Of a stretch of 46,077 bases of DNA, positions 16,843 through 28,648 are shown one piece after another. Within the stretch, counting starts at the first letter, position 1, and every line of letters begins with the position of its first letter. Location: contig JAFZQE010000080.1 of assembly GCA_017552325.1 (NCBI GenBank), positions 1 through 46,077 of the forward strand, in the 5' to 3' direction. The position numbers and the translations under genes are program-made. The notes under the pieces are model-generated. The model saw only the letters and a program-made list of their open reading frames with translations, was not told where the DNA came from and did not search any database. The stretch comes from Oscillospiraceae bacterium. Lineage in GTDB: Bacteria > Bacillota > Clostridia > Oscillospirales > Oscillospiraceae.

Positions 16843-18729
16843 ATGAACAAAAAGCAGAAAAAGGTCCTGCGGCGGATCGTCCTGTCGGTCCTGCTGCTGG
16901 GGCTGATCTATGCGCTCTTCACGCTGCACGTGCTGCCGGAGAACCGCTGGCTGGAGCTTGGGCTCTATCTGATCCCCTACCTCGTCATCGGTTACGACAT
17001 CCTGCTCAAAGCGGCGAAGGGCCTGCGCAACGCCCAGCCCTTTGACGAGAACTTCCTGATGGCCGTCGCCACGGTCGGCGCGATCGCGCTGGGCGAGTAC
17101 CTCGAGGGCGCGGCGGTCATGCTCTTTTACCAGATCGGCGAGCTCTTCCAGAGCTACGCGGTGGGCAAAAGCCGCCGCAGCATCAGCGCGCTGATGGACA
17201 TCCGCCCCGATACCGCCAACGTCGCGCGCGAGGACGGCACGCTCGAGCAGGTCGACCCGGACGAGGTTCCCGTCGGCACGGTGATCTGGGTGCAGCCCGG
17301 CGAAAAGATCCCGATCGACGGCGTGGTGGTCGAGGGGCAGAGCACCCTGGACACCGCGGCGCTGACCGGCGAGAGCGTCCCGCGCGACGTGTGGGAGGGC
17401 GAGGAGGTCGTCAGCGGCTGCGTCAACCTCAACGGCCTGCTGAAGGTCCGCACGACGCGCGAATTCGGCGAGTCCACCGCCTCGAAGATCCTCGACCTGG
17501 TGGAGAACGCCAGCTCCAAAAAATCACGGCAGGAGAACTTCATCTCCCGCTTCGCCCGCGTCTACACGCCGGTGGTCTGCCTCGGCGCGCTGCTGCTGGC
17601 GCTGTTGCCGCCGCTTGCGAACCTGCTGCTCGGCCGCGGCTCGGACTGGAGCACCTGGATCTACCGCGCGCTGACCTTCCTCGTCATCAGCTGCCCCTGC
17701 GCGCTGGTCATTTCGATCCCGCTGAGCTTCTTCGCGGGCATTGGCGGCGCGAGCGGCGCGGGCGTTCTGGTCAAGGGCTCGAAATACATGGAAACGCTCT
17801 CGCGCGTGCGGCTGCTGGCCTTTGACAAGACCGGCACGATGACGCAGGGCGTCTTCGAGGTGCAGGGCGTGCACCACAGCGCGATGGAGGAGCGGGAGCT
17901 TCTGGAGCTGGCCACCCTGGCCGAGAGCTATTCCACCCACCCGATCAGCCGCAGCCTGCAGCGTGCCTGGGGCGGCGTGCCGGACAAGAGCCGCGTCGGC
18001 GAGCTGCGGGAGATCCCCGGACAGGGCGTCGTCGCGCAGGTCGACGGGAAAAGCGTCGCCGTCGGCAACGACAAGCTGATGGCCGCGCTCGGCGTCGAGG
18101 CGATCGCCTGCCGCAGCGCGGGCACGGTGGTGCACGTGGCGGTGGACGGCGCCTACGCCGGGCACATCCTGATCACCGACATGCTCAAGCCCACGGCCAG
18201 GGAGGCCGTCGCCGCGCTGAAGAGCGCCGGTGTGGAGCGGGCGGTCATGCTGACCGGCGACAGCCGCAGCGCCGCGGAGGAAACGGCCCGCGCGCTCGGC
18301 GGCGTAGAGTATTTCGCCGGTCTTCTGCCCGCTGACAAGGTCGCGAAGGTCGAGGAGCTGCTGGCGCGCAAGCCCAAGGGCGCTGCGCTGGCCTTCGTCG
18401 GCGACGGCATCAACGACGCGCCGGTGCTCTCGCGCGCCGACCTCGGCATCGCGATGGGCGCGCTCGGCTCGGACGCGGCCATCGAGGCGGCGGACGTCGT
18501 GCTGATGGACGACAATCCGCTCAAGGTCGCCAAGGCGATCCGCATCGCGAAAAAGTGCCTGCGCATCGTCTACGAAAACATCGTCTTCGCCATCGGCGTC
18601 AAGCTCCTGTGCCTGCTGCTCGGCGCGCTGGGCCTGGCGAACATGTGGGCCGCGATCTTCGCCGACGTCGGCGTGATGGTGATCGCGGTGCTCAACGCGA
18701 TCCGCGCGCTGCGCGTAAAGAACCTGTGA
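16843..18729 (+). CDS. cadA: P1B-type Cd/Zn/Pb-exporting ATPase lacking its own HMA domain
   Basis: 628 residues. Membrane segments at about 10-30 and 35-52 open the protein, GEYLEGAAVMLFYQIGELFQ and the actuator motif TGES follow. The metal-site helix has CPC at 284-286 (SCPCALVIS), the phosphorylation site is DKTGT (D328), then HP in YSTHPIS, MLTGD and GDGINDAPVL. CPC plus a C-terminal DVGVMVIAVLNAIR marks the Cd/Zn/Pb group (CadA/ZntA). Such pumps usually begin with one or two HMA domains; here that domain is the separate gene upstream. Starts 9 bases after it and 8 bases before the repressor gene. Confidence 0.95.
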   Translation: MNKKQKKVLRRIVLSVLLLGLIYALFTLHVLPENRWLELGLYLIPYLVIGYDILLKAAKGLRNAQPFDENFLMAVATVGAIALGEYLEGAAVMLFYQIGELFQSYAVGKSRRSISALMDIRPDTANVAREDGTLEQVDPDEVPVGTVIWVQPGEKIPIDGVVVEGQSTLDTAALTGESVPRDVWEGEEVVSGCVNLNGLLKVRTTREFGESTASKILDLVENASSKKSRQENFISRFARVYTPVVCLGALLLALLPPLANLLLGRGSDWSTWIYRALTFLVISCPCALVISIPLSFFAGIGGASGAGVLVKGSKYMETLSRVRLLAFDKTGTMTQGVFEVQGVHHSAMEERELLELATLAESYSTHPISRSLQRAWGGVPDKSRVGELREIPGQGVVAQVDGKSVAVGNDKLMAALGVEAIACRSAGTVVHVAVDGAYAGHILITDMLKPTAREAVAALKSAGVERAVMLTGDSRSAAEETARALGGVEYFAGLLPADKVAKVEELLARKPKGAALAFVGDGINDAPVLSRADLGIAMGALGSDAAIEAADVVLMDDNPLKVAKAIRIAKKCLRIVYENIVFAIGVKLLCLLLGALGLANMWAAIFADVGVMVIAVLNAIRALRVKNL

Positions 18730-18737
18730 GGTGTGAC

Positions 18738-19097
18738 ATGAACGAAAACGAAAGCCTGTTCTGCGAGGTGCAGGAGATCCACAGCGACCGCCTGAAGGCC
18801 GTGGCCTCAAAGCTGCCGCCGGAGGAGCATCTGCTCGACCTGGCGGAGCTGTTCAAGATCTTCGGCGACACGACGCGCATCCGCATCCTCTTCGTGCTCT
18901 TCGAGGAGGAGCTCTGCGTCTGCGATCTGGCCGCGGCGCTTCAGATGACGCAGTCGGCCATCTCCCATCAGCTCAATATCCTCAAGCGCAGCCGCCTGGT
19001 CAAGAGCCGCCGCGAGGGCAAGTCGGTGTTCTATTCGCTCGCCGACGAGCACGTCCGCTCGATCATCGCCCAGGGTATGGAACATATAGAAGAATAA
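18738..19097 (+). CDS. cadC: ArsR/SmtB-family metal-sensing repressor, CadC-like
   Basis: 119 residues, winged helix with ELFKIFGDTTRIRILFVL and recognition helix MTQSAISHQLNILKRSRLV. The ELCVCDL motif (C60, C62) together with N-terminal C9 matches the alpha3N Cd/Pb/Zn site of CadC; the C-terminal HVRSIIAQGMEH also keeps an alpha5-type His/Asp set as in CzrA. It is the last gene of the operon it probably represses, acting at the dyads at 16572-16600; metal binding would release it. Confidence 0.92.
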   Translation: MNENESLFCEVQEIHSDRLKAVASKLPPEEHLLDLAELFKIFGDTTRIRILFVLFEEELCVCDLAAALQMTQSAISHQLNILKRSRLVKSRREGKSVFYSLADEHVRSIIAQGMEHIEE

Positions 19098-19342: not shown

Positions 19343-20644
19343 CTACACGCGGAAGGTGAACACGATCGCGTCGTCCTCGTAGGCGGCGCTGAGGCTGCCC
19401 CTGTGGGCCTCGGCGATGGCGCGCGCGGCGGACAGACCGATCCCGTATCCGCCGCTCTTCTGCGTGCGCGCGGCGTCGGCGCGGTAAAAGCGGTCGAAGA
19501 GCCGCTCGGCGGGCACGCTCCGGTCGCTCACGGTGTTTTTCACCTGCAGCAGGGCTTTGCCGCCCTCTTTTCTGACCCGAAGCAGGACGGCGCCGCCCTC
19601 CGGCGAGTATTTGACGGCGTTGTCCAGCAGGATGCTGATCAGCTGCCCGATCTGTGCGCGGTTGGCGCGGATCTCGACCCCATCGGCGAGCTCCCAGCTG
19701 AAGCTGAGTCCTTTCAGTTCCGCCGGCTCCCGGAAGGGCCGCGCGGTCTCCTCCGCGAGCTCCCCGAGCGAAAAGGCCGTGAGATCCATCGGCTTGTGGC
19801 CCTCGTCGGCGCGGGCCAGGGCCAGCAGGTTCTGCGTCAGGCCGCTGAGACGTTCCACCTGGCCGCGGATGTTTTTCGTGTACTTGCTCTCGCCCTGCCG
19901 CAGCTCCATGGCCTCGGTGTTGGCGAGGATGATCGCCAGCGGCGTCTTCAGCTCGTGCCCGGCGTCGGTGACGAAGCGTTTCTGCTTTTCCATGTTTTGT
20001 GCCACCGGCTCGATGGCCTTCTTCGACAGGAACATGACGAACAGCAGCATCAGGCCCCAGCCGAGCAGGCCCGCCAGCGCGGACATCGCCGCCACGCGCA
20101 GCACGTCGGCGCGCTCGCGGCTGCGGTCGAGGAACACGGTCACGCGGCTGCCGTCCGCGCGCGTGACGCTGCGGTAGAGGTAGGCGCCGATGCGCCCCTC
20201 CGTCCTGTCGCCGACCGAGGCGTAGAGCGAGGCTGCCTCCTCCTCCGAGACGGAGGCGGTGCGGTTGAGCTCTGTGCTCACGCTGCCTCTGCCGTCGTCG
20301 GTCACGGTGAAGAAGAGCGCGGACATGCGGCTGTCCTCGGTCGGGCCGAGGCCCCAGAAGCCGACGCCGCCCCAAAAGCCGCCGCCCTCGGGAAAGCCTT
20401 CGCCCTCCGGAAAGCTGCCGCCGCCCTCCGGGAAGTCCTCTCCCTCCGGGCGATCGGCCGGCATATCCCAGGGACCGCGCCCGCCGCCCCCCTCGGTGTC
20501 GACCAGCGTGTCCAGCAGCTGGTCGGCCTCGCGGGCCTTCGTCCAGGCGTTGACGCCGTTGACGGCGCCGAGGATCGCCAGCAGCAGCACCGTGACGGCG
20601 ATCATGGCGGTCACGGTGAATTTTCGTCTCAGCGTGCGGATCAT
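19343..20644 (-). CDS. Membrane sensor histidine kinase with Gly-rich extracytoplasmic domain
   Basis: 433 residues. Membrane segments at about 11-33 and 185-207 enclose a ~150-residue outer domain whose first half is a low-complexity block of FPEGGG/FPEGEG repeats (residues 66-100). The cytoplasmic part has HisKA with H230 in DAGHELKTPLAI, N-box LLDNAVKYSPEGG and GGYGIGLSAARAIAEAHRG. ATG 20644 overlaps the regulator's stop codon by 4 bases (ATGA), so kinase and regulator are co-translated. Signal unknown; the D-box of the second ATP loop (NTVSDRSVPAERLF) is less regular than usual. Confidence 0.92.
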   Translation of the reverse strand: MIRTLRRKFTVTAMIAVTVLLLAILGAVNGVNAWTKAREADQLLDTLVDTEGGGGRGPWDMPADRPEGEDFPEGGGSFPEGEGFPEGGGFWGGVGFWGLGPTEDSRMSALFFTVTDDGRGSVSTELNRTASVSEEEAASLYASVGDRTEGRIGAYLYRSVTRADGSRVTVFLDRSRERADVLRVAAMSALAGLLGWGLMLLFVMFLSKKAIEPVAQNMEKQKRFVTDAGHELKTPLAIILANTEAMELRQGESKYTKNIRGQVERLSGLTQNLLALARADEGHKPMDLTAFSLGELAEETARPFREPAELKGLSFSWELADGVEIRANRAQIGQLISILLDNAVKYSPEGGAVLLRVRKEGGKALLQVKNTVSDRSVPAERLFDRFYRADAARTQKSGGYGIGLSAARAIAEAHRGSLSAAYEDDAIVFTFRV

Positions 20645-21315
20645 CGGATCTCCTCCAGACGGTAGCCGACGCCGCGCTTGGCGCGCAGCTCGATGTTCGC
20701 GCCCATCGAGGCCAGCCTCTTGCGCAGGTAGGAGATGTACACCCACACCACGCCGAGCTCCGCCTCGGTGTCATAGCCCCAGATCTTCGTCAGCAGGTCC
20801 TCGGTGGACAGGAAGATGCCGCGGTTGCGCAGCAGCAGCTCCATCATCTGATACTCGAGCTTCGGCAGCACGACGCTCTCGCCGCCGCAGGAGAGCGCGT
20901 AGCTCTGCATGTTCAGCGAGACGTTGCCCATCGTCAGGATGTCCGGCTTGAAGTCCTCGCGGCGGCGCAGCATCGCGCGCACGCGGGCCAGCAGCTCGCC
21001 CATCGCGAAGGGCTTGGGCAGATAGTCGTCCGCCCCGGCGTCCAGGCCCTCGATGCGGTCGCTGATCTCGCTTTTCGCGGTCAGCAGCAGCACCGGCGTA
21101 TTGACGCCCCGCTGCCGCAGCGCGGTCAGCACCTCGAGCCCGCTCATCTTGGGCATCATCACGTCCAGGATGATGCCGTCGTACTGTTCGTGCTCGGCGT
21201 AGTAGAGCGCGTCGGCGCCGTCGTACACGGCGTCCACGGTGTATTTGTGATAGGTGAGAATATCGGTGACGGCCTCGCTCATCGCGATCTCGTCCTCGGC
21301 GTAAAGCAGCTTCAT
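20641..21315 (-). CDS. OmpR/PhoB-family response regulator
   Basis: 224 residues. Receiver domain with acidic pocket (YAEDE), phospho-acceptor D51 in IILDVMMPKMSG, T in LLLTAKSE and K in YLPKPF; winged-helix output domain ending in VWVYISYLRKRLASMGANIE and KRGVGYRLEE. ATG 21315 with GGGGGTG upstream (a TTG one codon before is possible). First gene of the pair; a -10-like TATTAT lies at about 21341 on the minus strand. Confidence 0.95.
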   Translation of the reverse strand: MKLLYAEDEIAMSEAVTDILTYHKYTVDAVYDGADALYYAEHEQYDGIILDVMMPKMSGLEVLTALRQRGVNTPVLLLTAKSEISDRIEGLDAGADDYLPKPFAMGELLARVRAMLRRREDFKPDILTMGNVSLNMQSYALSCGGESVVLPKLEYQMMELLLRNRGIFLSTEDLLTKIWGYDTEAELGVVWVYISYLRKRLASMGANIELRAKRGVGYRLEEIR

Positions 21316-21362
21316 CAAAGCACCCCCGAAACAGATAATAGCAGCCTTTCCTTAAACCAGGC

Positions 21363-21991: not shown

Positions 21992-22020
21992 TTGACGGGA
22001 GAGAGCGGAGGAAGTATAGT
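21992..22020 (+). promoter_or_regulatory. Promoter of the OYE-SDR-AttH-AOR-Fd operon
   Basis: TTGACG (21992-21997), 17-base spacer, TATAGT (22015-22020), 36 bases before the first start codon. A second, weaker -10 (TATAAA, 22029-22034) follows. Confidence 0.75.
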
Positions 22021-22055
22021 TATTTTGTATAAATCTGTAAAGGGGGAGAGCTCCC

Positions 22056-24134
22056 ATGTACGAGCTTCTGCTCTCGCCGATGAAGATCGGCAGCATGACC
22101 GTGAAGAACCGCACCGTCATGACGGCGGCGGAATTTTCTCTCGGTCAGACCAACGGCAAGCCCACCGAGCGCCTGATGGATTACTATGAGGAGCGCGCGA
22201 AGGGCGACGTCGGCATGATCATCCCCGGCATCTGCCGCGTCAACGACATGGGCGGCGCGTCGACCTTCACACAGCTGGCGATGAGCCACGACTACCACAT
22301 CGAGCCGATGCGCGAGTTTGCCGAGCGGCTCCACCGCCACGGCGCGAAGCTGTGCATCCAGCTCCATCATCCGGGCCGGCAGGGCATGGCCAGCGCCATC
22401 AACTCCCTGCCCCTCGTCATCCCGGTGGCCGACCGCTTCCCGGGCGTGATGGATCAGATCTTCAAATGCACCCCCGTGCTGCTCGGCATGGAGGCCAAGG
22501 GCGTCTGCTTCTCGGTGCAGGCCCCGTCTAAGGTGGAGCTTGCCAAACACGGCGCGACGCGCATGCACGCGATGTCGAAGCGAGAGGTCAAGAACCTCAT
22601 CAGCGACTTCGTCGAGGCTGCCGTCCGCTGTCAGAAGGCGGGCGTCGACTGCGTGGAGCTGCACGCCGGGCACGGCTACATCATCCAGCAGTTCCTCTCC
22701 CCGCACACGAATCATCGAACCGACGAATACGGCGGCAGCTTCGAAAACCGCCTGCGCTTCATCACCGAGATCATCCGGGGCATCCGCGCGCGCTGCGGGC
22801 GCGACTACCCGCTGACCGTGCGCCTGACCGCCGACGAGATGTACAGCCGCATCGGCCGCCCCGGCGTCGGCTACGACATCGAGACCGGCAAGGAGATCGC
22901 CAAACGCCTCGAAGAGCTGACGGTGGACGCGATCAACGTCACCTCCGCCTGCTACGACGCCTACAACTACTGGCTGGAGCCGACCTCCTTCGAGCCCGGC
23001 TGGCGCAAATACCTCGCGCGCGAGATCAAGAGCGTCGTCTCGATCCCGGTCATCGCCGCCAACGTCATCCGCACGCCCGAGCAGGCCGAAAAGCAGCTCG
23101 AGGAGGGCGACCAGGACTTCGTCGCCTCGGCGCGCACCTTCATCTGCGACCCGCACTGGGTCGAGAAGGCCGCCGCCGGGCATCCGGAGGAGATCCGCCG
23201 CTGCATCGGCTGCCTCAACTGCATCCGCTCCTTCATGACCAACGCCGGCGTCGGCAAGCCCGGCGAGTGCGCGCTGAACATGAGCGTGGCGCGCGAAAAA
23301 GAGTGGTTCAACATGCCGCGCGACGGCGAAGGCAGAAAGATCCTCGTCATCGGCGCGGGGCCGGCCGGCCTCACCGCGGCGCAGACCCTGGCGATGCGCG
23401 GCTTCGACGTGACGGTGTACGAAAAGGCCGAAAAGCCCGGCGGACAGGTGATCACGGCCGCCGCCTGCCACCTCAAGGACAAGCTCTACTGGTGCATCGA
23501 GGATCTGATGACCGCCGCGAAGAAGGCCGGCGCGAAGATTGAGTTAGGAACCGAGCTGAGCGCGAAGGAGATCGCGGACATGGATCCCTGGGGCGTCGTC
23601 GTCGCTACCGGCGGCGAGCCGCTGCGCCCGCGCTCGATCGAGGGTATCGGCGGGGAGAACGTCTTCACCGCGCCGCAGATCATCCATAAGGAAAAGGTGC
23701 TCGAGAACAAGGACGTCGTCGTCGCGGGCTCCGGCCTGACCGGGCTGGAGACGGCGGAGATCCTCTGCCAGACCGGCAACCGCGTCACTGTCATCGAAAT
23801 GGCGGAGGAGCTCGCCCCCGGGGCCTGGTTCCAGCTCATCGACGACGAGCTGGAGCGCCTGTCGAAGACGGACACGAAGTTCGAGACCGGCACGAAGCTG
23901 CTTGCCGTTAACAAAGAGGGCGTCACCGTGCAGGACGTCAAAACCGGTCGGGAGCGCAAAATCCCTGCCGACGCGCTGGTGCTCTCGCTGGGCGTGCGCC
24001 CGGCGGGCAATCTCGCGCGCGAGCTCGACAAAGCCAGCGTCACGCGCATCTGGCGCGTGGGCGACGCCGTCAAGAGCGGCACGATCGCCGACGCCTGCCA
24101 CAGCGCCTTCGACACCGTCATGGCGATAAAATAA
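22056..24134 (+). CDS. Old-yellow-enzyme/FAD enoate reductase (2,4-dienoyl-CoA reductase/BaiCD-like)
   Basis: 692 residues. Residues 1-370 are the FMN TIM barrel (SPMKIGSMTVKNRTVMTAAE, LCIQLHHPGRQG, ELHAGHGYIIQQFLSPHTNH). The Fe-S motif CIGCLNCIR gives C383, C386, C389 and C405. Residues ~430-692 are a pyridine-nucleotide disulfide-type domain with two GxGxxG sites (VIGAGPAGLTAA, VVAGSGLTGLETA). This is the architecture of 2,4-dienoyl-CoA reductase, BaiCD/BaiH and trimethylamine dehydrogenase; the Cys spacing C-x2-C-x2-C is closer to the last. Expected reaction: NAD(P)H-driven reduction of an activated C=C. The active-site HAGH plus the operon partners argue for an enone or dienoyl substrate, not an amine. 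First gene of a five-gene operon. Confidence 0.93.
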   Translation: MYELLLSPMKIGSMTVKNRTVMTAAEFSLGQTNGKPTERLMDYYEERAKGDVGMIIPGICRVNDMGGASTFTQLAMSHDYHIEPMREFAERLHRHGAKLCIQLHHPGRQGMASAINSLPLVIPVADRFPGVMDQIFKCTPVLLGMEAKGVCFSVQAPSKVELAKHGATRMHAMSKREVKNLISDFVEAAVRCQKAGVDCVELHAGHGYIIQQFLSPHTNHRTDEYGGSFENRLRFITEIIRGIRARCGRDYPLTVRLTADEMYSRIGRPGVGYDIETGKEIAKRLEELTVDAINVTSACYDAYNYWLEPTSFEPGWRKYLAREIKSVVSIPVIAANVIRTPEQAEKQLEEGDQDFVASARTFICDPHWVEKAAAGHPEEIRRCIGCLNCIRSFMTNAGVGKPGECALNMSVAREKEWFNMPRDGEGRKILVIGAGPAGLTAAQTLAMRGFDVTVYEKAEKPGGQVITAAACHLKDKLYWCIEDLMTAAKKAGAKIELGTELSAKEIADMDPWGVVVATGGEPLRPRSIEGIGGENVFTAPQIIHKEKVLENKDVVVAGSGLTGLETAEILCQTGNRVTVIEMAEELAPGAWFQLIDDELERLSKTDTKFETGTKLLAVNKEGVTVQDVKTGRERKIPADALVLSLGVRPAGNLARELDKASVTRIWRVGDAVKSGTIADACHSAFDTVMAIK

Positions 24135-24180
24135 GCGATTTCATATTTCAGATATTATCATTGATGAGGAGTGAAGTCAC

Positions 24181-25008
24181 ATGATCGAGAACAAGAACAT
24201 CATCGTCACCGGCGCGTCCAGCGGCATCGGCAAGTCCATCATGGAGGAGCTGCTGCAGCAGCCCGGCAACCGCATCATCGCGGCCGCCCGCGGCGCGGAC
24301 AAGATCACCGGCTACGGAGACAACGTCATTCCCTTTTCCTGCGACCTGAGCACGAAGGAGGGCGTGGACGCCCTGTTCGCGAAAGCGGAGGAGGTCTTCG
24401 ACAAGATCGACATCTTCTTCTGCAACGCGGGCGCGCCCTACTACGAGCGCTTCGACTATGAGGACTGGGACCGCATCTCGCGCATCTTCGACCTCAACAC
24501 CGTGGGGCACATCTATAGCTACTCCAAGTACCTCCATCATCTGGACGGCCGCGAGGGGCGGCTGGTCTACACGATCTCCGCGATGGGCGAGATGGCCCTG
24601 CCCGGCTACGCGCTGTACGCGGCGACGAAGTTCGCGATGAAGGGCTTCCAGCAGGCCATCCGCGACGAGACCCCGAAAAATCTGCAGATCACCTGCGTCT
24701 ACCCGGTCTCGACCAAGACCAACTTCTTCAAGGTCGGCGGCGGCGGGCGCAAGATGGAGCCGCCCTTCCCCGTGCAGGCGCCGGAAAAGGTCGGCAAGGC
24801 GGTGGTCAAGGGCATCGACAAGCTCAAGAAGCACATCTACCCCTGCCCGGTCTATCTGCCGAGCAAGGTGCTGATGAACGTCGTCCCGCCCGTCAAAAAG
24901 CTCTATATCAGCGCCCAGAAGGGCAAGCTCAAGCGCTTCGTCAAGCGCGTCGAAAAAGAGAAGGAAGGCATCGTCGAGGACATCAAGCTGAAGAAAGCGA
25001 TGAAGTAA
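24181..25008 (+). CDS. Short-chain dehydrogenase/reductase
   Basis: 275 residues, classical SDR: TGASSGIG at 10-17, CNAG at 81-84, N106, catalytic S133, Y146 and K150 (YALYAATK). The substrate loop and C-terminal part are longer than usual and very basic (KKLYISAQKGKLKRFVKRVE), suggesting membrane or acidic-lipid contact, as in SDRs for ketosteroids, sphingoid bases or retinoids (DHRS7/KDSR-like). It would oxidise or reduce a hydroxyl/keto group. ATG with TGAGGAG upstream; 46 bases after the OYE gene and 12 before the next. Confidence 0.92.
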   Translation: MIENKNIIVTGASSGIGKSIMEELLQQPGNRIIAAARGADKITGYGDNVIPFSCDLSTKEGVDALFAKAEEVFDKIDIFFCNAGAPYYERFDYEDWDRISRIFDLNTVGHIYSYSKYLHHLDGREGRLVYTISAMGEMALPGYALYAATKFAMKGFQQAIRDETPKNLQITCVYPVSTKTNFFKVGGGGRKMEPPFPVQAPEKVGKAVVKGIDKLKKHIYPCPVYLPSKVLMNVVPPVKKLYISAQKGKLKRFVKRVEKEKEGIVEDIKLKKAMK

Positions 25009-25020
25009 GGAGGAACGATC

Positions 25021-26160
25021 ATGGCCAACATTCACGACATCACGCGCAACGCCTTCATGCTCCGCGGGCCGCTGGCCAAAAAGGGCTATGACTGGTGGTG
25101 GCATTCCCTGACGGCGGAAAACGCCGAGACCGGCGAGAAGAAGCCCTTCTACGTCGAGTTCTTCGCCTGCAACCCGGCGCTCGCCGCGGACGAGCCGGTC
25201 ATCGTCTGGAACGACCCCGAAAAGCAGAAAAAGGGCGTCCTGCCCTCCTACGTCATGGTCAACGTCGGCTTCTGGGGCGAGGATCACGGCCAGCTGCACA
25301 ACTTCTACGCCTGGAAGGACGTGAAGCTGCACGCCGACGCGCCCTATGAGATCGCCTGCGGCGGCTGCAGCTGCTCCGAGACGCACACCGAGGGCTGCGT
25401 CAGCGTCACGCCCGAGGAGCGGGACGCGCATCCCGAGTGGATGTGCGACGCGGGCGAGATGAGCTGGAAGCTCGACATCGACAAGAAGATCGCCTTCCAC
25501 GTCGGCTACGGCGCGAGCAAGTTCTTCCGCGACATCAACGCCTTCGAGATGTTCTGGCACGCCGAGGGCATGAAGACGAAGTACAGCGGCGAGATCGTCC
25601 TCAACGGCGTGAAGTACCTCGTCAAGCCCGAGACCTGCAACGGCTATGCCGACAAGAACTGGGGCGGCGACTTCACCTCGCCCTGGGTCTGGCTGTCGAG
25701 CAACGAGCTCAGAAGCCGCATCACCGGCAAAAAGCTCGAAAACAGTGTCTTCAACATCGGCGGCGGCCGCCCGAAGGTGGGCCCCGTGGCGCTCAACCGC
25801 AAGCTCCTGGGCGAGTTCTATTATGAGGGGAAGGACTACGAGTTCAACTTCTCCAAGTTCTGGACGCTTTCGGGCACGAAGTTCGACTGCTGGGAGACCG
25901 AGGACGAGATCCACTGGCACGTCGTGCAGACTACCGCGAACGCGAAGCTCGACACCCAGATCTGCTGCAAAAAGAAGGACATGCTGAACATCAACTACGA
26001 GGCGCCCACCGGGCTCAAGCGCCACAACCGCCTCTGGAACGGCGGCAACGGCACGGGCGTCCTGAAGCTCTACAAGCGGGATCTCCTCGGCAGGGAGACC
26101 CTGATCGACGAGATCGAGGCCGTCGGCATCGGCTGTGAATTCGGAGAATACGACAGATAA
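25021..26160 (+). CDS. Tocopherol-cyclase/AttH (CrtC)-like lipocalin-type protein
   Basis: 379 residues, no signal peptide. Rich in Trp, Tyr and Phe, with KKGYDWWWHSL (20-30), PSYVMVNVGFWGED, HPEWMCDAGEMSW, GYGASKF, NAFEMFWHAEGMKT, GYADKNWGGDFTSPWVWLSS. These aromatic strand motifs recur in the tocopherol cyclase and AttH/hydroxyneurosporene-hydratase (CrtC) clan, a double beta-barrel that binds hydrophobic isoprenoids. Five Cys lie in CGGCSCSETHTEGC. Whether it is an enzyme (hydratase, cyclase) or a carrier of the lipid substrate is open. GGAGG 8 bases upstream; its stop overlaps the AOR start (TAATG). Confidence 0.75.
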   Translation: MANIHDITRNAFMLRGPLAKKGYDWWWHSLTAENAETGEKKPFYVEFFACNPALAADEPVIVWNDPEKQKKGVLPSYVMVNVGFWGEDHGQLHNFYAWKDVKLHADAPYEIACGGCSCSETHTEGCVSVTPEERDAHPEWMCDAGEMSWKLDIDKKIAFHVGYGASKFFRDINAFEMFWHAEGMKTKYSGEIVLNGVKYLVKPETCNGYADKNWGGDFTSPWVWLSSNELRSRITGKKLENSVFNIGGGRPKVGPVALNRKLLGEFYYEGKDYEFNFSKFWTLSGTKFDCWETEDEIHWHVVQTTANAKLDTQICCKKKDMLNINYEAPTGLKRHNRLWNGGNGTGVLKLYKRDLLGRETLIDEIEAVGIGCEFGEYDR

Positions 26161-28142
26161 TGACTTCCTTCATGGGCAAGGTCCTCTGCGCGGATCTGAG
26201 CACGGGCGCGTGCGAAGCGAAACAGATCCCGCCGGAGGTCTATGAGGCTTTGCTGGCCGGCAAGGGCCTGGCGGCCTGGTATCTCTACAATAACATCCCC
26301 GCCGGGGCGGATCCGCTCGGGCCGGAGAACATCCTCGCCTTCGCGGCGGGGGCGCTCTGCGGCACCGGCGCCTTTCTGAGCGGGCGCTGGACCGTGGCCT
26401 GCAAAAGCCCGCTGACCGGCGGCTGGGGCGACGCCAACTGCGGCGGCCTCTTCGCCCCGGCGATCAAGCAGTGCGGCTACGACGCGATCTTCGTCTCCGG
26501 CGTCTCGGAAAAGCCGGTCTATCTCTTCTGCGACGGCAAGAGCGCCGAGCTGCGCGACGCCTCCGAATACTGGGGCCACGATGCGGTGGAGACCGAGAAG
26601 ACCCTGCACGAGGCGCTCGACGGTGTCTGTCGCAAGAAGCCCTGCGTCGCCTGCATCGGCCCGGCGGGGGAGAAGCTCTCGCTGATCGCCGGCATCTGCA
26701 ACGAGGGCGGGCGCATCGCCGCGCGCAGCGGCGTCGGCGCGGTGATGGGCAGCAAGCGGCTCAAGGCCGTGGTGCTGGCAGGCTCCCGGCCCATGCCCTG
26801 CGCCGACCCGGACAGGGTCAGGGCGCTCTCGAAGGAACTGGGGCAGAAGCTGCTGAAGCTGACGATCCCCTCCGGCCTCGGCGTCTTCATCGGCGCGGGC
26901 GGCAGGATGATGGGGCGGCTGCCCAGCATCCCGCTGGACGGCTCGCTGACCTCGATCATGTTCCGCGAGTGGGGCACCCCGGCCAACACCCCGCTGGCCA
27001 TCACCAGCGGCGACGGGCCGATCAAAAACTGGGGCGGCACGCCGCAGGACGCGCGGCTGATGGACCTTGCCTACAGCCCGGAGCAGATCAACCGGATCGA
27101 GACGGCCAAATATCACTGCTACTCCTGCCCGCTGGGCTGCGGCGGCAGGCTGAACATCCGCGGGCGGAAGTACGCGGGTTACGACGAGACGCACAAGCCC
27201 GAGTACGAGACGATCGAGGCCTTCGGCCCGCTGCTGCTGAACTGGAGCATGGATTCGATCTTCCAGCTCAACGAGATGCTCAACCGCGCCGGCATGGACA
27301 CGATCTCGGCCGGCAACACGGTCGCCTGGGCGATCGAATGCTACGAAAACGGCGTTCTGACCGTGCGGCAGACCGAGGGCCTGGCCCTCAACTGGGGCAA
27401 CACCGAGGCGATCCTCGAGCTGGTGCGGAAAATGATCGCACGCGAGGGCTTCGGCGACGCGCTGGCCGACGGCGTCAAGCGCGCTTCCGAACGCTTCGGA
27501 GGCAAAGAGTACGCGATGCACGTCGGCGGGCAGGAGCCTGGCATGCACGACGCGCGCAACGACCCGCAGCTCGGCGTCCACTTCGCGGCCGAGCCCGCGC
27601 CCGGCAAGCACACGGTCGGCATGAGCATCCAGTACGGCGCGATGAGCCTCTGCGACGTCTGCTCCTGGGCGCCTCCGGCCAGGCTCCACCTCAAGGCCGA
27701 GGATCTGGAGGACACCGAGGAGATGGCCCTGATCTCCAAGGCCAACGCCTGCTACTCGATGCTGACCGATGGCGCGGGCGGCTGCTACTACGGGGAAATG
27801 ATGGGCGTGCATATGTGGAAGCTGGTGGACTATCTCAACGCCGCCGAGGGCTGGGAGCACGACGGCGACCACTACATGGAGATCGGCGAGCGCATCCAGA
27901 CCCTGCGGCAGCTCTTCAACGTCAAACAGGGCGTCGACCCCGCCTCCGTCCGGCTGCCGAAGCGCATGCTCGGCGAGCCGCCGCTCAATGCGGGGCCGCT
28001 GAAGGGCGTGACGCTCGGCAGCCACCGCGCACAGGTCTCCGCCCATTGGCGGGCCTTCGGCTGGGACGAAAAAACCGGCGTGCCGCTGCCGGAGACGGTC
28101 GCGCGGCTGGGGATCGACAAACTGACGGAGGCGGCGCCATGA
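26160..28142 (+). CDS. Tungsten/molybdenum aldehyde:ferredoxin oxidoreductase family protein
   Basis: 660 residues, standard AOR size. N-terminal GKVLCADLSTG and CKSPLTGGWGDANCGG, pterin-binding CIGPAGEKLSLIAGI and AARSGVGAVMGSKRLKA, cluster Cys C320-x2-C323-x3-C327 (YHCYSCPLGCGG) with the fourth ligand in CDVCSW (C498/C501). AORs carry W (or Mo) bis-pyranopterin and one [4Fe-4S] and interconvert aldehydes and carboxylates with ferredoxin; other members reduce carboxylates or aromatic rings (BamB). It overlaps the ferredoxin gene by 4 bases (ATGA), pointing to a stoichiometric complex. No W-transport genes are adjacent. Confidence 0.93.
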   Translation: MTSFMGKVLCADLSTGACEAKQIPPEVYEALLAGKGLAAWYLYNNIPAGADPLGPENILAFAAGALCGTGAFLSGRWTVACKSPLTGGWGDANCGGLFAPAIKQCGYDAIFVSGVSEKPVYLFCDGKSAELRDASEYWGHDAVETEKTLHEALDGVCRKKPCVACIGPAGEKLSLIAGICNEGGRIAARSGVGAVMGSKRLKAVVLAGSRPMPCADPDRVRALSKELGQKLLKLTIPSGLGVFIGAGGRMMGRLPSIPLDGSLTSIMFREWGTPANTPLAITSGDGPIKNWGGTPQDARLMDLAYSPEQINRIETAKYHCYSCPLGCGGRLNIRGRKYAGYDETHKPEYETIEAFGPLLLNWSMDSIFQLNEMLNRAGMDTISAGNTVAWAIECYENGVLTVRQTEGLALNWGNTEAILELVRKMIAREGFGDALADGVKRASERFGGKEYAMHVGGQEPGMHDARNDPQLGVHFAAEPAPGKHTVGMSIQYGAMSLCDVCSWAPPARLHLKAEDLEDTEEMALISKANACYSMLTDGAGGCYYGEMMGVHMWKLVDYLNAAEGWEHDGDHYMEIGERIQTLRQLFNVKQGVDPASVRLPKRMLGEPPLNAGPLKGVTLGSHRAQVSAHWRAFGWDEKTGVPLPETVARLGIDKLTEAAP

Positions 28143-28594
28143 CGAAGAAACAACCGGTTTTCGACTATCTTAACTGCGTCAGCTGCGGTATCTGCGCGCA
28201 GGCCTGCCCGGTCTCCGTCCTCGCCATGAAGCGGGAGGGCAAAAGCGGCAAATACCGCAACGTCTTCCCGGAGCCCGAAGGCGCGGGCTGCCTCGGCTGC
28301 GGCCAGTGCGCGAAGGCCTGTCCGATGGACGCGATCGTCATGGAGGAGGCGAGCGGTCAGATGCGAGTGAAGATCCTGCCGCCGCACGGCAGCGACCGCA
28401 GCGCGCTGGACGAGCGCTCCTGGGCGGAGCTGCCGGAGGGCAGCACCGTGCGCGACGTGCTGAAGCTCGTGCGCTGCAGTCCGGTGAAGGCGAAGCTCCT
28501 GCTGGTCAGCGTCAACGGAGAGCGCAGCCCTCTCGACCGGGAGCTGCACGACGGCGACGTGGTCGGCTTCTTCTTCCCGGTCTCGGGCGGCTGA
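28139..28594 (+). CDS. Fusion of 2[4Fe-4S] ferredoxin and MoaD/ThiS-like sulfur carrier
   Basis: 151 residues. The first part has two clusters: C13, C16, C19, C23 and C51, C54, C57, C61, with CP after each fourth Cys. Residues ~76-151 are a beta-grasp domain with ELPEGSTVRDVLKL, LLVSVNGERSPLDRELHDGD and the terminal FFFPVSGG; the final Gly-Gly is the thiocarboxylation signal of MoaD/ThiS proteins. The ferredoxin half is the likely electron partner of the AOR; the MoaD half could supply dithiolene sulfur for its pterin, or the GG tail may be structural. Starts inside the AOR stop codon. Last gene of the operon. Confidence 0.92.
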   Translation: MTKKQPVFDYLNCVSCGICAQACPVSVLAMKREGKSGKYRNVFPEPEGAGCLGCGQCAKACPMDAIVMEEASGQMRVKILPPHGSDRSALDERSWAELPEGSTVRDVLKLVRCSPVKAKLLLVSVNGERSPLDRELHDGDVVGFFFPVSGG

Positions 28595-28606: not shown

Positions 28607-28648
28607 AAGAAAGGGGAACTTCCTTCGGAGGAAGTTCCCCTTTCGCTT
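28607..28648 (+). terminator. Operon terminator
   Basis: GAAAGGGGAACTTCC-ttc-GGAGGAAGTTCCCCTTTC, a near-perfect ~16-bp stem followed by GCTTTTTTT. Confidence 0.92.

Follow-up and report, generated by a model that had tools for sequence, protein, structure and literature searches.

A conserved gene unit around a tocopherol-cyclase-family protein, possibly converting a lipophilic plant compound in herbivore-gut anaerobes

The genes for an ene-reductase (OYE), an adh_short protein (SDR) and a tocopherol-cyclase-family protein (TOC) are kept together, in two gene orders, in 55 of the 80 best relatives that a search with TOC gave for a five-gene array of the window (the whole stretch of 46,077 nucleotides that was analysed, a contig of an Oscillospiraceae bacterium), and the unit is no chance array. 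TOC with OYE and SDR forms the core, to which an aldehyde:ferredoxin oxidoreductase (AOR) is a lineage-specific addition. Each of these enzyme families is known, but the combination was not found described in the open-access literature, where no paper was found to share the terms “tocopherol cyclase” and “aldehyde ferredoxin oxidoreductase”; the statement of the earlier note that it knew no described pathway with this set has therefore held. As a general scheme, the reduction of a C=C bond combined with the oxidation of an aldehyde of a lipophilic compound has, in our judgment, about an even chance of being right. More tentatively, and short of even, the unit may act, in anaerobes of the herbivore gut, on an unsaturated and lipophilic alcohol or carbonyl compound of plant origin, with phytol as the likeliest substrate.

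The five genes lie on the forward strand of the window between a promoter-like and a terminator-like site:

21992..22020, + strand: sigma-70-like promoter TTGACG-17-TATAGT, 10 of 12 consensus matches
22056..24134, + strand: OYE, 692 aa, FMN/4Fe-4S/FAD ene-reductase of the 2,4-dienoyl-CoA-reductase type
24181..25008, + strand: SDR, 275 aa, adh_short
25021..26160, + strand: TOC, tocopherol-cyclase-family protein, 379 aa
26160..28142, + strand: AOR, aldehyde:ferredoxin oxidoreductase large subunit, 660 aa
28139..28594, + strand: two-cluster ferredoxin fused to a ThiS/MoaD-like domain, 151 aa, ending in Gly-Gly
28609..28644, + strand: intrinsic-terminator-like stem-loop of 16 pairs with a T tract

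Gaps of 46 bases (OYE-SDR) and 12 bases (SDR-TOC) are followed by the overlaps TAATG (TOC/AOR) and ATGA (AOR/ferredoxin-ThiS), and the array claimed in the earlier note was confirmed in its coordinates, gaps, overlaps and promoter-like and terminator-like sites. With such a layout the five genes would be transcribed as one unit. Promoter-like sites of this quality number 5 against 0.9 expected on both strands of 7.6 kb, and terminator-like sites in the region number 14 against 6.8 expected, so that the terminator scan is a loose one. The earlier family calls were likewise borne out by Pfam, with Oxidored_FMN and Pyr_redox_2 in OYE, adh_short in SDR, Tocopherol_cycl in TOC, AFOR_N and AFOR_C in AOR, and Fer4 and ThiS in the last protein. 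Elsewhere in the window, a P-type metal ATPase and, after it, a regulator of the ArsR family lie at 16843-19097, and a two-component system lies on the opposite strand at 19343-21318.

A scan of named genome records for TOC gave 321 relatives, the best 80 of which were kept, and neighbours up to 6.5 kb away from it were counted with tblastn; many of the genomes are incomplete drafts. Open-reading-frame scans overlooked some genes (the ALDH in L135, OYE in L148 and SDR in L149), and the counts rest on tblastn where it is given. The two orders of the core comprise 34 loci (OYE-SDR-TOC-AOR-FDX in 26, OYE-SDR-TOC in 7 and OYE-SDR-TOC-AOR, ended by the contig edge, in 1) and 21 loci (TOC-SDR-OYE), respectively; TOC-SDR was found in 3 of the 80, SDR-TOC-AOR-FDX and TOC-AOR-FDX in 1 each, and TOC without OYE and SDR in 20, of which 10 have less than 6.5 kb on one side. 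The co-occurrence with OYE and AOR that the earlier note had proposed to check is thus well founded for OYE and SDR, but AOR lies near TOC only in 29 of the 80 loci. As a fixed member AOR was rejected, none being present within 6.5 kb in 51 loci, a few of which end just after TOC (L025, L040, L078).

The members of the unit also diverge in step, with r = 0.92 for OYE and TOC (52 loci) and r = 0.945 for TOC and AOR (28 loci); pairwise gene distances agree with r between 0.79 and 0.95, and 0 of 999 permutations gave values as high. These matching distances speak for joint inheritance, not for function. In 9 of the 55 relatives, assigned by record title to Mogibacterium (seven), Crickella (one) and Clostridiales (one), OYE and SDR are fused into a single protein some 1000 aa long. 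Six genomes carry an OYE of at least 49% identity at a separate place from TOC; SDR directly adjoins this separate OYE in five (L100-L103, L149), and in the sixth, L148, no SDR was found beside the OYE (49.8%) and SDR stays with TOC. Clustering, OYE-SDR fusions and matching divergence support that part of the earlier note's pathway inference which is retained, a redox unit inherited together and directed at an unsaturated carbonyl compound of lipophilic nature, without AOR in its core. OYE of at least 49% identity is absent from 16 of the 35 TOC-bearing genomes searched, and since TOC also stands alone in 20 of the 80 loci, its own job cannot depend on OYE; the TOC reaction therefore has a value of its own, and OYE and SDR are often added to it. 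Near the Mogibacterium-like copies an amidohydrolase, a SAM-hydroxide transferase and a two-gene HGD-D (double-cubane or dehydratase-like) reductase were observed, mostly in that lineage; the HGD-D pair sits there just upstream of OYE and was seen at 3950-6684 of L029, in L027, L030 and L033, and also in L020 and L035.

The distribution of the unit is patchy. Among 79 genomes of the Butyrivibrio group TOC is present in 27, and OYE of at least 64% identity occurs in 4, exactly those 4 in which TOC is at least 76% identical; 12 others have only OYE relatives of 40-42%. In the window's family TOC was found in 28 of 300 genomes; the only one of the 300 with an orthologue of AOR is the genome of the window itself, and two more have relatives of just 37%. 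A genome of the window's genus carries TOC at 89% and no AOR. In the window's class TOC was matched at E 1e-5 in 11 of 391 genomes, some of these matches being weak or partial, and the broad PF14249 family at E 0.001 in 47 of 291. No match to TOC was found in plasmids; a record of a Methanomassiliicoccaceae archaeon contains TOC with 67% identity (L073, 10001-11125), perhaps by transfer or binning error. A host is named in the titles of 24 of the 55 loci with OYE and TOC (counted by hand, the remaining 31 being left out of the host count), that is 19 goat, 3 sheep, 1 buffalo and 1 horse, and 11 of the 24 name rumen, reticulum or omasum. These titles fit a substrate from plant feed and speak against bile acids.

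TOC itself scores 26.8 bits against Pfam PF14249 (Tocopherol_cycl), a marginal match only 0.2 bits above the gathering cut-off of 26.6, and in the genome search with this model its best stretch alone, at 25.5 bits, stays below the cut-off. All 28 aligned TOC members match PF14249 with E values no higher than 1, the best being 2.9e-9, and a profile-profile comparison with Clostridia Tocopherol_cycl (VTE1-like) proteins gave a probability of 92.7 and E 4e-7 over 234 columns. TOC is thus homologous to the VTE1-like tocopherol cyclase family, with which it has the motif GY-x-[DE]-K-[ND]-W-G in common, but it forms a separate and very conserved subfamily, 64-92% identical to the window protein across the 80 loci and with more than 100 invariant positions in the alignment of the 28. 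By analogy with its family, its chemistry is likely to be an addition, driven by a proton, across a double bond of the prenyl type. That TOC might belong to DUF2804 (PF10974) was considered but found no support (profile probability 4.4 over 54 columns, no significant likeness). The solo TOC genes of three Lachnospiraceae (L079, L081, L082) are flanked by a GH3 glycosidase on one side and a NAGPA-domain protein on the other; these families were scanned in L082 only.

OYE, SDR and AOR all have their catalytic residues. OYE is a three-domain FMN/4Fe-4S/FAD protein in which C383, C386, C389 and C405 together with H203, H206 and Y208 are invariant among 11 aligned relatives, and SDR has the glycine motif TGASSGIG at position 10 and the residues S133-Y146-K150. 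The domain architecture of OYE is that of BaiCD and long BilR, but it reaches less than half of the BaiCD cut-off (395.3 of 825 bits, NF041087) and half of that of the long bilirubin reductase (375.3 of 750 bits, NF045599), and it differs by about 38 extra residues within its first 155, as seen in the alignments with OYE. The HGDR motif, given as the criterion for BilR in the available text of PMC10769871, is absent, HGYII standing at 206 instead, so that OYE as a bile-acid (BaiCD) or bilirubin reductase was rejected on model scores and motif. Paired OYE-like proteins of about 937 aa, 39-40% identical to the window OYE and with long additional C-terminal parts, were observed at 2808-11377 of L145 and 3260-13060 of L146, with SDR-like genes nearby.

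AOR scores over the cut-off for both AFOR_N (232.3 bits) and AFOR_C (311.6 bits), its best solved relative is 1aor, and an alignment read by hand shows that it keeps residues equivalent to C288, C291, C295, C494, E313 and H448, which in the P. furiosus enzyme are the four cysteines of the 4Fe-4S cluster and two acting residues, Glu313 and His448. Among 35 TOC-bearing genomes, most of them selected from loci without AOR, the best AOR match was partial, at 39%; the source draft genome of the window (2.09 Mb, 75% complete) has two further AOR-family matches and a MoaA gene. The last protein of the array has two four-cysteine cluster motifs, a ThiS domain (34.5 bits, cut-off 22.5) and the C-terminus SGG. 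The ferredoxin-MoaD fusion announced in the earlier note is real in the window, but it is no defining feature and was rejected as a hallmark: of 28 relatives, 1 has ferredoxin and ThiS in a common frame, 26 have no open frame that runs through both, and 1 is cut off. ThiF-like proteins, encoded in 10 loci and in 8 of these directly divergent from OYE (one was scanned with Pfam), could possibly activate the MoaD domain. According to the available text of PMC6365974, aorABCDE of Aromatoleum and Moorella likewise combines an AOR large subunit, an iron-sulphur partner and MoaD-like factors in an operon. Unlike that system, the window lacks the FAD subunit AorC, no separate gene for it being found among the five (OYE carries an FAD domain), has a two-cluster instead of a four-cluster ferredoxin, and joins AOR to OYE, SDR and TOC.

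Three unrelated aldehyde-handling families recur near TOC, namely AOR, an ALDH3-class dehydrogenase and an iron alcohol dehydrogenase, and it is on this recurrence that a module with C=C reduction and aldehyde oxidation is proposed. ALDH3 directly adjoins TOC in L034 and in Butyrivibrio, where it follows TOC in L045, L046, L093 and, by coordinates, G462, and faces it in L085 and L086; the carriers of TOC and ALDH3 probably include B. proteoclasticus B316. This protein is closest to solved ALDH3-class and fatty-aldehyde dehydrogenases, and its best NCBIfam model is a benzaldehyde dehydrogenase (326 of 550 bits, below the cut-off). As a PF00171 member, the Butyrivibrio ALDH3, beside TOC or DUF2804, is unrelated to AOR and presumably NAD(P)-linked, and the same aldehyde-oxidising role is proposed for it. 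L034, in which ALDH3 lies 72 bp from TOC, branches among relatives that carry AOR (support 100/96); the same amidohydrolase is found beside it, and a MoaC gene is present. Its draft genome gave no AOR match, although incompleteness could hide one elsewhere.

In the 79 Butyrivibrio-group genomes TOC and ALDH occur together in 18, TOC only in 9, ALDH only in 9 and neither in 43 (Fisher p = 3e-5, or 1.3e-3 with six linked cases removed, in a test that ignores shared descent). ALDH3 of at least 64% was found in 5 of 33 tested genomes without and 0 of 7 with a local AOR, so that the alternation of AOR and ALDH3 is statistically weak, 28 of the 33 having no such ALDH3. In the TOC-SDR-OYE group no ALDH3 match at E 1e-60 was found in the 9 genomes tested, and just 2 of the 9 gave AOR matches, partial and at 39% or less. 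Iron alcohol dehydrogenase genes of one cluster (one member scanned with Pfam) lie in 8 of the 80 neighbourhoods; the one in L053 passes the lactaldehyde-reductase cut-off and may thus be unrelated.

In the pathway that we propose, TOC would carry out acid-base chemistry on an isoprenoid-type C=C bond, as does its family relative tocopherol cyclase, SDR would interconvert alcohol and carbonyl with NADP(H), OYE would reduce the C=C bond conjugated to the carbonyl made by SDR, and AOR, paired with a ferredoxin of its own and with a MoaD-like factor that serves its pterin cofactor, would take the saturated aldehyde to the acid, yielding reduced ferredoxin; in Butyrivibrio the ALDH3-class dehydrogenase would perform this last step. 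Phytol from chlorophyll would accordingly pass through phytenal and phytanal to phytanic acid. What the analysis shows is the set of genes with its conservation and fusions, and the repeated presence of aldehyde-handling neighbours; we infer the reaction order, direction, cofactor preference, substrate and TOC activity, and phytol or a close prenyl alcohol as the actual substrate, for which the gene types were fitted to a known conversion, is by itself rather unlikely. In the rumen, the available text of PMC7551613 describes a route from phytol through dihydrophytol and phytanal to phytanic acid and a second one that uses a fatty aldehyde dehydrogenase; phytol is reduced first in the main route, so that an aldehyde intermediate before the reduction is an assumption. 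A feeding study found partial conversion of phytol (PMC8495353, available text).

Of the competing explanations, the saturation of polyunsaturated fatty acids in ruminal biohydrogenation survives best and is still unlikely: TOC would hydrate or isomerise a C=C bond, SDR would oxidise the hydroxy acid and OYE would reduce the enone. A hydratase, a dehydrogenase and an enone reductase act in that sequence on fatty acids in lactobacilli, and TOC does occur in the Butyrivibrio group; however, it was not found in 52 of the 79 genomes, a B316-like genome is without an OYE match at E 1e-100, and AOR, ALDH3 and the iron alcohol dehydrogenase near TOC are left unexplained. An oleate hydratase gene of B. 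fibrisolvens INBov1, moreover, could do the hydration, according to the available text of PMC6249431, in which the genes for ruminal fat hydrogenation appear as poorly known.

Distinctly unlikely is a turnover of fatty aldehydes from ether lipids, in which TOC would protonate and hydrate the vinyl ether of a plasmalogen and ALDH3 or AOR would oxidise the freed aldehyde. Such chemistry resembles that of tocopherol cyclase, and of the 15 ALDH loci taken from the Butyrivibrio group, 9 have ALDH3 beside DUF2804 (L125, L126, L128, L129, L133, L141-L144; DUF2804 confirmed by Pfam in 3 of the 9 and assigned by clustering in the remainder), as do 0 of 4 other readable ALDH loci, in a table of 19 of 20 loci from which L135 was left out. 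A Pseudomonas DUF2804 gene also responds to a glycerolipid regulator in the available text of PMC8151288. This explanation, however, leaves OYE and SDR without a role, TOC shows no significant likeness to DUF2804, and the patchy distribution suggests a dietary substrate and not the cell's own.

A broad detoxification of enals and enones from plants or lipid peroxidation, with no dedicated pathway, is quite improbable: the OYE, AOR and ALDH3 families do include broad-range enzymes, but the strong conservation of TOC and the OYE-SDR fusions point to one substrate. The reduction of a steroid, sterol or bile acid, which the earlier note had listed and which the occurrence of OYE and SDR types among gut steroid enzymes might favour, is highly improbable, since OYE stays far below the BaiCD and BilR cut-offs and lacks HGDR, 11 relatives come from the forestomach, which precedes the entry of bile, and no steroid-specific gene was found among 20 neighbour proteins scanned with Pfam, a non-exhaustive set.

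The phytanic acid of milk and meat fat goes back to phytol that has undergone alteration in the rumen, and the available text of the two sources names no bacterial gene for this alteration (PMC7551613, PMC8495353). Should the proposal be right in full, a fairly unlikely outcome, this would be the first described bacterial pathway for the saturation and oxidation, in the herbivore gut, of phytol from chlorophyll or an equivalent plant prenyl alcohol, with the TOC fold in a new catalytic role and interchangeable tungsten AOR and ALDH3 ends. Candidate genes are present in strains that are in culture, namely Butyrivibrio sp. AE3009 and MC2021 and, for TOC with ALDH3, probably in B. proteoclasticus B316, and the question is therefore directly testable. 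Should TOC prove to be an enzyme that acts on free lipids, a role outside photosynthetic organisms would be added for the tocopherol-cyclase family.
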